Assembly: GCF_013001025.1 (NCBI RefSeq)
Contig: NZ_CP053021.1
Location: 3,066,001 to 3,130,000 of the forward strand
Origin: Sphingobium yanoikuyae
GTDB lineage: Bacteria > Pseudomonadota > Alphaproteobacteria > Sphingomonadales > Sphingomonadaceae
Direction: 5' to 3'
DNA length: 64,000 nt
A program made the translations under genes and the position numbers. Positions 38,157 through 43,378 of the stretch are shown here, piece after piece. Every line of letters starts with the position of its first letter. The stretch's first letter is position 1. The notes under the pieces were generated by a model. That model was not told the origin of the DNA and made no database searches. It was given only the letters and a program-made list of their open reading frames with translations.

Positions 38157-39083
38157 TCAGGCGCCGGCGGCAGCAGCCACTTCGGCGGCGAAGTCGCTGA
38201 CTTCCTTCTCGATGCCTTCGCCCAGCTGGAAGCGGACATAGGACTTGAGCGAGATCGACTTGCCGGCATCCTTGGCCGCCTTGGCGACGACGTCGGCGAT
38301 CGGGGTCTTGTTGTCCATCACGAACAGCTGCGAGAGCAGAGCCTGCTCCTTGGCGAACTTGGCGACCGCGCCGTCGACCATCTTGGCGACGATTTCGGCG
38401 GGCTTGCCCGATTCGGCGGCCTTTTCAGCGGCGATCGCGCGCTCACGCTCCAGCAGGGCCGGATCGATGTCGTCAGCCGACAGGGCCAGCGGGAAGGCAG
38501 CGGCGATGTGCATGGCCAGCTGCTTGCCCAGCGGCTCCAGAACGTCGGCGGGGGCTTCGCCTTCGAGCGCGACGAGCACGCCGATCTTGCCGAGGCCCGG
38601 CGCAGCAGCGTTGTGCACGTAGGGCACGACGACGCCTTCGGTCACTTCGACATGGGCGACGCGACGCAGATTCTGGTTTTCGCCGATGGTGGCGATGTTG
38701 GCGACCAGCTTTTCGGCGATGGTGCCGCCGGCGGGGTGCGGCTGGGCCGACAGGGCTTCGGCGTCAGCCGCGCCCGATTCCAGCGCAACGGCCGACACGG
38801 TGCGAACGAAGTCCTGGAACTGGTCGTTCTTGGCAACGAAGTCGGTTTCGCTGTTCACTTCGACGGCAACACCCTTGGTGCCGGCGACGGCAACGCCGAC
38901 CAGGCCTTCAGCGGCGGTGCGGCTCGACTTCTTCTGGGCAGCAGCCAGACCCTTGGCGCGCAGCCAGTCGGTCGCCGCTTCGATGTCGCCATTGGCTTCG
39001 GTGAGGGCCTTCTTGCAATCCATCATGCCCGCGCCCGAACGGTCGCGCAGTTCCTTGACGGCGGCAGCGGTAATCTCGGCCAT
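38157..39083 (-). CDS. tsf: Elongation factor Ts
   Basis: A 308-residue EF-Ts, the nucleotide exchange factor of EF-Tu. The N-terminal [20 protein letters not shown] motif, the [12 protein letters not shown] segment and the [20 protein letters not shown] helix are classic. It follows rpsB, the normal order, with a 105-base gap that contains a strong hairpin without a T-tract. Confidence 0.97.
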
Positions 39084-39124
39084 GTTGAGGCTCCTAAATC
39101 AAAAGGGGTTTAATCAGATAAGCA

Positions 39125-39157
39125 CTAGGGCGCGCTCCGTAATGGACCGCGCCCTAG
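39125..39157 (-). other. Perfect hairpin between rpsB and tsf
   Basis: CTAGGGCGCG (39125) pairs perfectly with CGCGCCCTAG (39148). Neither strand has a T-tract, so it may be an RNA processing or attenuation element setting the S2 to EF-Ts ratio rather than a plain terminator. Confidence 0.5.
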
Positions 39158-39188
39158 CCTGTCATTCTTGCAGTTCGAAGACCGCGGA

Positions 39189-39947
39189 TCAGGCCTGCGC
39201 GACGACCTCTTCGGCCTCGGGCTCGTCCAGAGCGCCCAGGTCGATGCCCGAAGCCTGCTGCGCACCACGGTTGCCCTTGGTGGCGGCAGCGGCAACGGCG
39301 TCGCAGTAGAGGCGGATGGCGCGGCTGGCGTCATCGTTCGCCGGAACCGGGAAGGCGATGCCGTCGGGCGAGACGTTCGAGTCGAGGATGGCGACAACCG
39401 GGATACCCAGGGTGTTGGCTTCCTTGATCGCCAGCTCTTCCTTGTTGGCGTCGATCACGAACATGACATCGGGGATGCCGTTCATGTCGCGGATGCCGCC
39501 CAGCGACAGTTCCAGCTTCTCGCGCTCGCGGGTCATCTGGAGGACTTCCTTCTTGGTGAAGCCGTGGGTATCGCCCGACAGCTTCTCTTCGAGGGTCTTC
39601 AGGCGCTTGATCGAGCCCGAGATGGTCTTCCAGTTGGTGAGCATGCCGCCCAGCCAGCGATGGTTGACGAAGTGCTGACCCGACTTGCGGGCGGCTTCGG
39701 CGATCGGATCCTGGGCCTGGCGCTTGGTGCCGACGAACAGAACCTTGCCGCCGCCGGCGACGGTGGCCGACACGAAGTCGAGGGCGCGCGCGAAGAGCGG
39801 CACGGTCTGCGACAGGTCAAGGATGTGGATGCCGTTGCGGTCGCCGAAGATGTACGGCTTCATCCGCGGGTTCCAGCGGTGGGTCTGGTGGCCGAAGTGG
39901 GCGCCAGCCTCGATCAATTGCTGCATGGTGACGACGGGGGTCGCCAT
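39189..39947 (-). CDS. rpsB: 30S ribosomal protein S2
   Basis: A 252-residue S2 protein: [56 protein letters not shown] and [15 protein letters not shown] are all S2 hallmarks. I choose the ATG at 39947, eight bases after GGAG, over the one at 39953, which is only two bases away from it. The gene has a leader of about 200 bases upstream with a hairpin and T-run that could act as an attenuator. Confidence 0.97.
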
Positions 39948-40064
39948 AATCATTTCTCCTTCCGGTTGCTACCTCTGGGAATCAGGAACCTTGGATGGTC
40001 TCAAAGACCCGTCCGGCACCGGATATGTCGATTCCCATGTGGAATGGACGCGCCTTTAACGCCC

Positions 40065-40087
40065 AAAACCCCGTTGCGCAAGGGGTT
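40065..40087 (-). promoter_or_regulatory. Hairpin with T-run in the rpsB leader, possible attenuator
   Basis: On the minus strand AACCCC, a nine-base loop TTGCGCAAC and GGGGTT are followed by TTTT, about 118 bases before the rpsB ATG. It looks like a small terminator or attenuator in the S2 leader. The same bases overlap the -35 element of the plus-strand SOS promoter. Confidence 0.4.
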
Positions 40088-40114
40088 GACTCGCTCTCAA
40101 TATGAGAACATAAA
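40086..40114 (+). promoter_or_regulatory. Sigma-70-type promoter of the small membrane protein gene
   Basis: TTGACT at 40086 and CATAAA at 40109, separated by exactly 17 bases, match -35 (5 of 6) and -10 (4 of 6). Transcription would start near 40121, 84 bases before the ATG at 40205. Confidence 0.65.
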
Positions 40115-40120
40115 GTGAAC
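40106..40120 (+). promoter_or_regulatory. LexA (SOS) box, GAAC-N7-GAAC
   Basis: GAACATAAAGTGAAC is an exact match to the alphaproteobacterial LexA operator GAAC-N7-GAAC (GTTC-N7-GTTC on the other strand). It overlaps the -10 element of the promoter of the 40205 gene, so LexA binding would block it. A third GAAC lies nearby at 40126 but with the wrong spacing. Confidence 0.78.
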
Positions 40121-40204
40121 AGATGGAACAAACAGTCTAAACGCCCGTTTGCACCGACATAGTGAGCCTAAGCGTGCAAATGGCAAGATAGAAAGTCAGC
40201 GGCC

Positions 40205-40441
40205 ATGTTCACCATTGTTGCAGCGACCATTTTCTCCGCCGCCTTCCTGCTGGCGGTCGGCACCATTGCCTGGATGTTTGCGCTCTATCATCAGAAGATG
40301 GCCGCAGCCCTGCTGTTCGAGCCGATTCCCCAGACCCCACCCGTCTATCATATCCGCATCACGCGGAACCGCGTGCGCCAGCCGGCCCGCGCCGCCACCC
40401 TGTCCGCCCCCGCCCTGCCCGGCAGCGCCCTCGCTGCCTGA
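40205..40441 (+). CDS. Small membrane protein under SOS control, possible division inhibitor
   Basis: A 78-residue protein with one long N-terminal membrane span (about residues 3-27, FTIVAATIFSAAFLLAVGTI onward) and a basic, proline- and alanine-rich tail of about 50 residues (RITRNRVRQPARAA). I recognise no family. An in-frame stop at 40169 fixes the ATG at 40205 as the start, though the ribosome binding site is weak. An exact LexA box sits on its promoter. Small SOS-induced inner-membrane proteins in alphaproteobacteria, such as Caulobacter SidA, block cell division; the same role here is an inference from promoter and topology, not from sequence similarity. Confidence 0.65.
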   Translation: MFTIVAATIFSAAFLLAVGTIAWMFALYHQKMAAALLFEPIPQTPPVYHIRITRNRVRQPARAATLSAPALPGSALAA

Positions 40442-40455
40442 ACAGGACTTCCGGC

Positions 40456-41223
40456 TCAGCCAACAGGCTGCTTGCGCACCTTGGCGTAGGACAGGATGCC
40501 GAACGGGATCAGCAGCACATAGACGCCGCAGATCAGCAGCAAAGTGAACCAGGGCTGGGTCGCCAGCGCCGCCGCCAGCAGGCCGACAAAGGCGATGAGT
40601 TCCAGCCGGATGCGCTTGCGCAGCCGCAGCGCCGACCAGCTATAGGTGGCGATGCTGGAGATCATCAGGAAGGCCACGAACGCGGTCCAGGGCGCGACCA
40701 CATACCAGGCGCGGAAAATCTCTTCGCCCGTCACCATCCACAGATAGAGCGGCACAAAGGTGAGGCCGGCGCCGGCCGGAGCCGGCACGCCGGTCAAAAA
40801 GCCGGCCGATTTGTGCGGCTGTTCCTCGACATCGATATTGGCGTTGAAGCGCGCCAGGCGCAGCGCGCAGGACAGGGCATGGGCCAGCGCGAAGATCCAG
40901 CCGAATTTCGGCATGGCGTGCAGCGACCAGAGATAGAGGATCAGCGCCGGCGCGACGCCGAATGCAATCGAATCGGACAGCGAATCCAGTTCGGCGCCAA
41001 AGCGGCTCTCGCCCCGCAGCATCCGGGCGATCCGGCCGTCCAGTCCGTCGAGCACGCCAGCGAACAGGATGGACAATACCGCCCGCTCCCACTCGCCTGA
41101 AATGCCGTAGCGCACGCCGGTGAGGCCGAAGCACAGCGCCATCGCCGTCACCGCATTGGGCGCCAGCATGCGCAGCGTGATGCCGCGCCGCAGCCCGCGC
41201 GGAACGGCGCGACGCCGCCTCAC
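40456..41223 (-). CDS. pssA: CDP-diacylglycerol--serine O-phosphatidyltransferase
   Basis: A 255-residue integral membrane CDP-alcohol phosphatidyltransferase that makes phosphatidylserine. The catalytic motif is complete in [10 protein letters not shown] to GAELDSLSD, with the required aspartates. About six spans are predicted. No ATG lies at the N terminus; translation starts at the GTG at 41223, which overlaps the psd stop (GTGA), so psd and pssA are translationally coupled. Confidence 0.93.
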
Positions 41224-41978
41224 TGCTGGATGCCCGCAATCACGCGGCGATCGCCGATCTGGCCCAGGATCGTCTCGCCCGCGACGGTGCGCTGGCCCAG
41301 GATCACGCGCGGCGCGGTGCCGGCGGGCAGATAGACGTCGACACGGCTGCCAAAGCGGATGAGGCCGATGCGCTGGCCGGCGGCGACCATGTCGCCCGGC
41401 TTGACGAAGGGCACGATGCGGCGCGCGACAAGGCCGGCAATCTGGGTGAAGCCGACGCGCAGGCCGTCATGACGCTCGACCAGGATATGCTGGCGCTCAT
41501 TATCCTCGCTCGCCTTGTCGAGATCAGCGTTGAGGAACTTGCCCGAAATATAGGTGACGGCCTTCACCGTGCCGCCGATCGGGGTGCGGTTGATATGGAC
41601 GTCGAACACGCTCATGAAGATCGACACGCGGATCAGCGGCTGATCGCCCAGGCCATCAGGGCCGGCCATCTCGCGCGGCGGCGGCACGCGCTGGATCAGG
41701 GTCACCAGGCCATCCGCCGGGGCGATGATCGCGCCTTCATCCTGCGGCACGGCGCGGATCGGATCGCGGAAGAAGGCCAGCACCCAGATGGTGACCATCA
41801 GCATCAGCCAGCCGATGATTTCCCAGCCCATCACGAAGAACAGGCCGGTGATCGCAGCCGCGATCGCGCCGAACTTCACCCCTTCGGGATGGACCGAGGG
41901 GAAGCGCCATTTGACATTGCCGCCTGCGGCAATCGTGATCTCGTCATTTTCCATGGGCATGTCTTTAGGGGGAGACAT
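41220..41978 (-). CDS. psd: Phosphatidylserine decarboxylase
   Basis: A 252-residue enzyme that decarboxylates phosphatidylserine to phosphatidylethanolamine. It belongs to the short, archaeal/alphaproteobacterial type, with a pyruvoyl group formed by self-cleavage at the GS pair in [13 protein letters not shown]. Two spans lie at about 35-75, and [16 protein letters not shown] is conserved. The start is uncertain: ATG at 41978 (AGGA a few bases upstream, used here), 41960 or 41954. Together with pssA it supplies phosphatidylethanolamine for the membrane. Confidence 0.92.
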
Positions 41979-42157
41979 TGATCCTGACAACGACGATCCC
42001 GGTCCTTGGCTCCCGGCATGAACGCGCATCGCACAACAGTCTTGCGCATGCATCGCATGATCGGCCGGAAATCCGGCGCTGGACGGTTGAACATTGGCGG
42101 CGCAGGCCGTAGGGCGTCCCCATAATTCCACCCAAGAGAAGAAGGCGAATAGGCGCT

Positions 42158-43378
42158 ATGGCGAAGATCAAGGTGAAAAACCCCGTCGTGGAAATCGACG
42201 GCGACGAAATGACCCGCATCATCTGGGAATGGATCCGTGAGCGCCTCATCCTCCCCTATCTCGACGTCGACCTGAAATATTATGACCTGTCGGTCGAGAA
42301 GCGCGACGAGACCAGCGACCAGATCACGATCGACGCCGCCAACGCGATCAAGGAATATGGCGTCGGCGTGAAGTGCGCCACCATCACCCCCGACGAAGCG
42401 CGCGTCGAGGAATTCGGCCTCAAGAAGATGTGGAAGTCGCCCAACGGCACGATCCGCAACATCCTGGGCGGCGTCGTGTTCCGCGAACCGATCGTCATCA
42501 AGAATGTCCCCCGCCTGGTTCCGGGCTGGACCGACCCGATCGTCGTCGGCCGGCACGCCTTTGGCGACCAGTATAAGGCCACCGATTTCAAGGTGCCCGG
42601 CGCCGGCACGCTGACCATGAAGTGGGTCGGCACCAATGGCGAGGAACTCGAATATGAAGTGTTCGAATTCCCCAGCGCCGGCGTTGCCATGGGCATGTAC
42701 AATCTCGACGAATCGATCCGCGATTTCGCCAAGGCCAGCTTCAACTATGGCCTGAACCGCGGCTGGCCCGTCTATCTGTCGACCAAGAACACCATCCTCA
42801 AGGCCTATGACGGCCGCTTCAAGGATCTGTTCCAGGAAGTGTTCGACGCCGAATTCGCCGACAAGTTCAAGGCGGCCGGCATCGTCTACGAACATCGCCT
42901 GATCGACGACATGGTCGCTTCGGCGCTGAAGTGGAGCGGCAAGTTCGTCTGGGCCTGCAAGAACTATGACGGCGACGTCCAGTCGGACACCGTGGCCCAG
43001 GGCTTCGGCTCGCTCGGCCTGATGACCTCGGTCCTGCTGTCGCCCGACGGCAAGACTGTGGAAGCCGAAGCCGCGCACGGCACCGTCACCCGCCACTATC
43101 GCCAGCACCAGCAGGGCAAGGCGACCTCGACCAACCCGATCGCCTCGATCTTCGCCTGGACCCAGGGCCTGTCGTTCCGCGGCAAGTTCGACGACACGCC
43201 GGACGTCGTGAAGTTCGCCGAGACGCTGGAGCAGGTCTGCATCAAGACCGTCGAAGGCGGCGCGATGACCAAGGATCTGGCCCTGCTGATCGGCCCGGAT
43301 CAGGCCTGGATGACCACGGAGCAGTTCTTCGAGGCGATCCGCGTCAATCTGGAAGCCGAAATGGCCAAGTGGGCCTGA
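42158..43378 (+). CDS. icd: NADP-dependent isocitrate dehydrogenase, eukaryote-like type
   Basis: A 406-residue enzyme of the homodimeric type related to mitochondrial and cytosolic IDH, oxidising isocitrate to 2-oxoglutarate. [52 protein letters not shown] and [12 protein letters not shown] are typical, the last being the NADP-binding loop. It stands alone, with a strong terminator after it, and its product enters the 2-oxoglutarate dehydrogenase step encoded at 52-58 kb. Confidence 0.96.

Follow-up and report, generated by a model that had tools for sequence, protein, structure and literature searches.

A LexA-boxed gene for a small membrane protein with an Ala-Ala end, a candidate SOS-induced division inhibitor in sphingomonads

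Introduction

The gammaproteobacterial inhibitor SulA is SOS-induced and short-lived. It acts on FtsZ polymerization, and small membrane proteins that respond to DNA damage include Caulobacter SidA, a LexA-controlled inner-membrane protein of 29 amino acids, and DidA, which has 71 amino acids, one membrane span, and short cytoplasmic and periplasmic parts (excerpts of PMC4211646). SidA acts via FtsW; DidA is damage-induced but SOS-independent and acts on FtsN. In Caulobacter, a lexA mutant no longer forms filaments once sidA has been removed as well (excerpt of PMC12700426). SosA of Staphylococcus and YneA of Bacillus are SOS-induced division inhibitors, and SosA, a protein of 77 amino acids with one span, possesses an extracellular C-terminus that governs its turnover, likely by CtpA (excerpt of PMC6851548). 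Here, we analyze a locus of the alphaproteobacterium Sphingobium yanoikuyae that might encode a functional counterpart of such proteins. It lies in a 64-kb stretch of DNA (64,000 nucleotides; contig NZ_CP053021.1, positions 3,066,001 to 3,130,000), below called the window. A promoter, a LexA (SOS) box, and a 78-codon open reading frame (ORF) can be read directly in its sequence at 40086-40441.

With slightly better than even confidence, we propose that this gene encodes an inner-membrane effector that is induced in the SOS response, is rapidly degraded, and probably inhibits division, the division target being suggested by analogy. If this is right, the protein would be like SidA and SosA in function. 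In common with SidA, which like DidA was compared by description, it is alphaproteobacterial, small, and, as predicted here from sequence, located in the inner membrane and LexA-controlled (excerpt of PMC4211646). In contrast to SidA with its 29 amino acids, the proteins considered here mostly have 70 to 90, and they carry a long tail that in most of them finishes with Ala-Ala. They differ from DidA, which is similar in size and likewise has one span, in that the gene has a conserved LexA box and that the 78-amino-acid protein has almost no predicted periplasmic part. SosA resembles this protein in size and in its single span, but the C-terminus of the latter is predicted to be cytoplasmic from the charge distribution. 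The LysM domain present in YneA and ChiZ was not matched (Pfam, expect value [E] ≤ 1), and at this threshold neither Pfam nor NCBIfam yielded any family for the window protein (0 in each), which sets it apart from SulA.

Coupling of DNA damage to cell division seems undescribed in sphingomonads, and none of the literature matches listed deals with an SOS division inhibitor of these bacteria. The gene offers one candidate for such coupling, occurring in many genera and carrying a built-in prediction of how it would be switched off.

A promoter overlapped by a LexA box

On the plus strand, a -35 element, TTGACT (40086..40091), is separated by 17 bases from a -10 element, CATAAA (40109..40114), which lies within a LexA box, GAACATAAAGTGAAC (40106..40120), an exact match to GAAC-N7-GAAC. 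The gene, with its stop included, follows at 40205..40441. The initial annotation had described precisely this arrangement of promoter elements, box, and 78-residue ORF, and all of it is present as stated there. However, a single exact box proves little by itself, since the window holds three where 1.23 are expected and at least three were found in 14 of 100 shuffles. These numbers would allow the box and the ORF to be chance or non-functional. Conservation of the box, its position, the coding sequence, and the C-terminus across genera makes this explanation hardly credible, and we reject it.

With the single protein as query, the ORF was identified in 25 of 25 genus genomes, among them the one that contains the window (26 of 41 genomes matched overall). 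Successive profile searches in the family matched 12 of 298 genomes, then 99 of 397 (31 of 96 genera), and finally 187 of 397 (53 of 96 genera), the last count being taken at E ≤ 0.01 and including weakest matches that are unverified and in some cases probably chance. Just 14 to 19 candidates were scored per genome in these searches, a procedure that loses true members. Relatives were also found in Sphingomonas and Parasphingopyxis, where they are annotated as hypothetical or uncharacterized proteins. A search of the order matched 78 of 246 genomes, all within the family except for one weak match (E 0.008), and a class-wide search yielded matches in 2 of 289 genomes, each from the window's own family. 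Two candidates were set aside as chance matches: the 26th match of the single-protein search, from another family (L026, E 0.008), which hit a longer protein, and a second match in the own genome (C1:192778) with one TGA inside.

The box played no part in any homologue search, so that its occurrence upstream of the relatives constitutes a blind test. Within the genus, it was found at -89 to -101 from the start taken in all 24 loci read by script, and the 25th (L025) also has one. Among 134 distinct proteins from 163 loci, a set excluding the mobile copy L027 and the doubtful member L208, an exact box was present within 300 bp upstream in 132 and within 150 bp in 129, compared with 3 of 2784 same-strand 150-bp windows elsewhere in those loci. 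A search for the ORF and the box in related genomes had been proposed with the initial annotation, and both are conserved, as these counts and those for the genus and the family attest. Analyses of 132 proteins reported below also leave out L213 and L057, for which the script had assigned a start too distant from the true one on the upstream side; counted from the correct start, their boxes stand at -192 and -115. In a second set of 40 loci, comprising 38 from the 187-genome family search and the weak genus cases G184 and G428, the exact box was found in 32 by script and in 35 once three starts (L252, L257, and L270) were corrected. L053 and L055 are among the loci with two boxes 25 bp apart.

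The promoter is likewise conserved. In 53 of 54 Sphingobium-type loci, TTGAC keeps the spacing to the box that is seen in the window, and among 131 box-bearing relatives it precedes the box by 6 to 44 bp in 125. The interval is 20 bp in 60 of these 131 and 7 to 12 bp in 61, so that the box would cover either the -10 element or the spacer. The window contains a third GAAC (40126..40129, plus strand), 5 bp past the box. Such a GAAC follows at 4 or 5 bp in 52 of the 54 Sphingobium-type loci, and 27 of 78 others have one within 8 bp. Because it does not fit the 11-bp register, it may be an extra LexA contact or the site of another regulator.

In the own genome, the same pattern precedes lexA by 30 bp and the recA frame taken by 72 bp. 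Under anoxia, Sphingopyxis granuli co-induced lexA, recA, radA, dinG, two imuA operons, and SRAP genes as an SOS set (excerpt of PMC6472365); the gene for the 78-amino-acid protein was not seen within this set as the excerpt describes it. Since the box is conserved and the same pattern stands at SOS genes of the own genome, several of which are of kinds co-induced in S. granuli, we consider SOS control of the gene very likely.

Neighboring genes

The gene is flanked by two genes on the minus strand, rpsB (39189..39953, Ribosomal_S2), which is divergent, and a convergent CDP-alcohol phosphatidyltransferase gene (40456..41223, PF01066 and PF08009), which we take to be pssA. This orientation implies that the promoter at 40086-40114 serves the 78-codon ORF alone, in agreement with the initial annotation. 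Among 85 loci from the 99-genome family search, 83 have the box near or upstream of the start and 76 encode an Ala-Ala end, while the stretch read includes pssA in 74 and rpsB in 66. This association might suggest that the protein is an SOS-induced modulator of a membrane machine other than the divisome, for instance a membrane protease, a transporter, lipid synthesis, or envelope stress. Synteny with rpsB and pssA can be plain inheritance because the genes are divergent or convergent, and four loci (L170, L196, L209, and L212) keep the box with neither neighbor in the stretch read. We regard a target of this kind as doubtful, though together with a membrane-active effect considered below it is one of the two main rivals to a division inhibitor.

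Between rpsB and the ORF, on the rpsB side, we observed an imperfect palindrome, CCATG[TC]GGAA (40035-40044), which 77 of 132 relatives have in the 700 bp that precede the ORF. It may be a promoter or leader element of rpsB.

A single-span protein with a conserved juxtamembrane motif

AlphaFold2 modeled a single helix comprising residues 2-37 (codons at 40208..40315, plus strand), in which the best hydrophobic stretch covers residues 4-22. Mean predicted local distance difference test (pLDDT) values, by tens of residues, were 96, 99, 95, 82, 75, 65, 51, and 51, with a predicted template modeling (pTM) score of 0.42. All 132 relatives have one hydrophobic 19-residue stretch, with a median start at residue 4, and no second one past residue 30. 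The net charge before the span is 0 in 129 relatives and -1 in 3; after the span it averages +5.7, reaching at least +3 in 124, with a lowest value of -1. According to the positive-inside rule, this distribution predicts that the N-terminus is out and the C-terminus in. The identity of the product as a small single-span membrane protein is thus strongly supported, and we predict one helix in N-out/C-in orientation followed by a basic tail. The N-terminal span and basic tail assigned in the initial annotation are borne out by hydropathy and charge in these relatives and by the helix model.

Codons 28-42 (40286..40330, plus strand) encode a juxtamembrane motif, YHQKMAAALLFEPIP, recognized in the genus comparison and in the mobile copies described below. 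Within the genus, the span and a YHxKMxAALLFEPIP segment are conserved, whereas the tail is variable. The tail, encoded by codons 43-78 (40331..40438, plus strand), is basic and modeled as disordered. Residues 2-42 are under purifying selection, with a median ratio of nonsynonymous to synonymous substitution rates (dN/dS) of 0.19. The 47 sequences compared form 1081 pairs, and the 821 with a dS of 0.2-1.5 entered this median.

The box, the small size, the one span, and the basic charge are also features that an SOS-induced membrane-active peptide would have. TisB is such a peptide, SOS-induced and depolarizing the inner membrane (excerpt of PMC8145889). A TisB-like product would depolarize the membrane and slow damaged cells, with proteolysis acting as a safety valve. 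However, no Rfam RNA family scored above its gathering score at 39000-42200, and the conserved cytoplasmic motif together with the tail would exceed the needs of a pore former. We therefore consider this second main rival unlikely.

An Ala-Ala end resembling the tmRNA tag

The protein ends in ALAA (40427..40438, plus strand), which we propose as an ssrA-like degron. This feature and the mobile copies were absent from the initial annotation. The tail differs between relatives in length and sequence, yet the C-terminus is Ala-Ala in 118 of the 134 and Ala in 132. Shuffling of the last 25 residues gave an expectation of 6.1 Ala-Ala ends per 134, and among 40 long ORFs in the window, 1 has such an end. 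The commonest end is A-L-A-A in the 54 Sphingobium-type proteins and L-R-A-A-A in the other 78. The organism's own transfer-messenger RNA (tmRNA) encodes the tag ANDNEALAIAA, so that the final residues ALAA of the protein resemble the ALAIAA at the end of the tag; they are, however, encoded in the gene, whereas the tag is added by trans-translation.

Profiles that include the tail favor Ala-Ala-ended relatives, and for this reason the count was repeated with a tail-less query. It yielded 30 loci, namely 2 mobile copies and 28 host ORFs. Each of these 28 had the box, and 24 had the Ala-Ala end, the other four ending in LTA, LTA, LAG, and LIA.

In Caulobacter, changing the terminal alanines stabilized CtrA (excerpt of PMC4433202). 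ClpXP, ClpAP, Lon, and FtsH are each able to degrade proteins with an ssrA tag, in the case of FtsH also one located in the inner membrane (excerpt of PMC8138137). Given the resemblance of the 118 Ala-Ala ends to the organism's tag, a degron is the simplest reading and a likely one. Judged by titles and the beginnings of abstracts, none of the papers listed describes an SOS-induced inhibitor of division that carries an ssrA-like degron.

Alternatively, the topology might be reversed, with the Ala-Ala end exposed outside the cytoplasm, where a periplasmic carboxy-terminal protease would act on it in the way suggested for CtpA and SosA. The size, single span, and C-terminal turnover determinant of SosA (PMC6851548, excerpt) give this model a precedent. 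The near-neutral charge before the span and the positive charge after it predict the opposite orientation, and we judge the reversed topology quite improbable.

Short copies in mobile elements

A first short second copy (L027) was found in one genome of the genus. Scans of viral contigs and the tail-less genus search produced ten distinct short proteins, five of them from viral contigs (L286, L287, L288 [identical to L289], L290 [identical to L322], and L291) and five from genus genomes (L323-L327). The helix is kept in all ten. The motif YRxKMxAALLFEPIP is exact in 5, carries 1-2 changes in 3 (L286, L287, and L324), and has diverged in 2 (L325 and L326). After EP/DP, the short copies have 1 to 22 residues, compared with 38 in the window protein; none of the ten has the long tail or the Ala-Ala end. 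L287 stops within the motif while its tblastn match continues past the stop, and this copy may be disrupted. For L286-L291, the 350 bp before the match contain no exact box; for L322-L327, none occurs from a point 250 bp ahead of the open frame onward. Because the mobile copies keep the helix and the motif without the tail, these two would form the effector part of the protein.

Ten neighboring ORFs from L286-L289, L324, L326, and L327 were compared with Pfam and eight with PHROGs. They include S24-peptidase repressors (L286 and L327), a serine recombinase or integrase (L289 and L324), and a ParB-like protein and DUF5131 (L288), settings that appear to be prophage-like elements. Searches of GenBank phages and PLSDB plasmids gave no match for the window protein; the L285 copy had none in GenBank phages, and the L027 copy none in PLSDB plasmids or GenBank phages.

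A small ORF recurs near six short copies (L286, L287, L323, L324, L325, and L327). It is reminiscent of a HIRAN domain, and its recurrence suggests one element family with a shared early region.

Proposed role in damage-dependent division arrest

We infer induction, topology, and proteolysis from the features described above, and the division target from analogy with known inhibitors. LexA would cover the promoter and keep the gene repressed. Upon DNA damage, cleavage of LexA would free the promoter, and the 78-residue protein would be made and would enter the membrane such that the N-terminus faces out and the basic tail stays cytoplasmic. As the effector, the helix and the YxxKMxAALLFEPIP segment would act on a membrane partner. 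By binding a membrane-embedded division protein, as SidA does via FtsW, the effector would hold the divisome inactive. Its Ala-Ala end would permit fast removal by ClpXP or FtsH once LexA repression returns, and division could resume. The divisome is the likeliest partner because division is the target of the small, damage-induced proteins with a single span that were compared here (SidA, DidA, and SosA), and because division blockers are frequent in phages.

It is tempting to speculate further that the gene represents a family-wide damage checkpoint of sphingomonads, in which a membrane inhibitor is encoded with a mimic of the tmRNA tag, and that phages captured the effector half without the LexA switch or the tag to arrest host division on their own terms. 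We put this extended scenario forward as tentative, with the chances somewhat against it. The tail-less mobile copies point to the presumed effector, so that target and degron would be separable.

Several results weigh against the proposed SOS-induced, unstable division inhibitor. The tail-less query matched 76 of 94 genus genomes and thus not all, and the gene was detected in about half of the sampled family genomes. The window protein matched no named family in Pfam, NCBIfam, PHROGs, PADLOC, or PDB sequences. Sixteen of the 134 relatives do not end in Ala-Ala, 2 of which do not end in Ala. Five loci of the second set lack an exact box: L264 is cut by a contig end; in L269, the 122 bp available upstream contain a box with one mismatch, and boxes of this kind also precede the L283 ORF; L277 and L284 have none, L284 probably not being a true member. 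Finally, about half of the stretches fetched from the own genome around the box pattern contained no recognized SOS gene, so that the pattern alone fails to define a regulon.

The genus member L283 (G184) is an observation in its own right. Its ORF ends in RQAAA and is preceded by one-mismatch boxes alone, and its LexA site may have decayed.

The LexA pattern elsewhere in the genome

The whole genome contains 120 exact box patterns compared with 85 for the reversed pattern, and many of these sites are therefore chance occurrences. From 100 of the 120 sites, 19 stretches were picked by eye for an A/T-rich core and surveyed together with lexA and recA. The box was found at radA with an ORF of the endonuclease/exonuclease family, at recG with SdhE, at an SRAP-domain ORF, and at three imuA-like ORFs. 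Pfam backed the assignments of a RadA-type ATPase, EEP nuclease, SRAP, Sdh5, RecG, and LexA. The three imuA-like ORFs, which had no Pfam match and are presumably of this type by resemblance, lie at separate loci (L100, L102, and L103) with a LexA-type box before each. In addition, a 2'-5' RNA ligase-superfamily ORF (L107:2020-2610), the longest frame of which starts within a good LexA-type box, GAACATATAGTGAAC, is possibly under SOS control as well.
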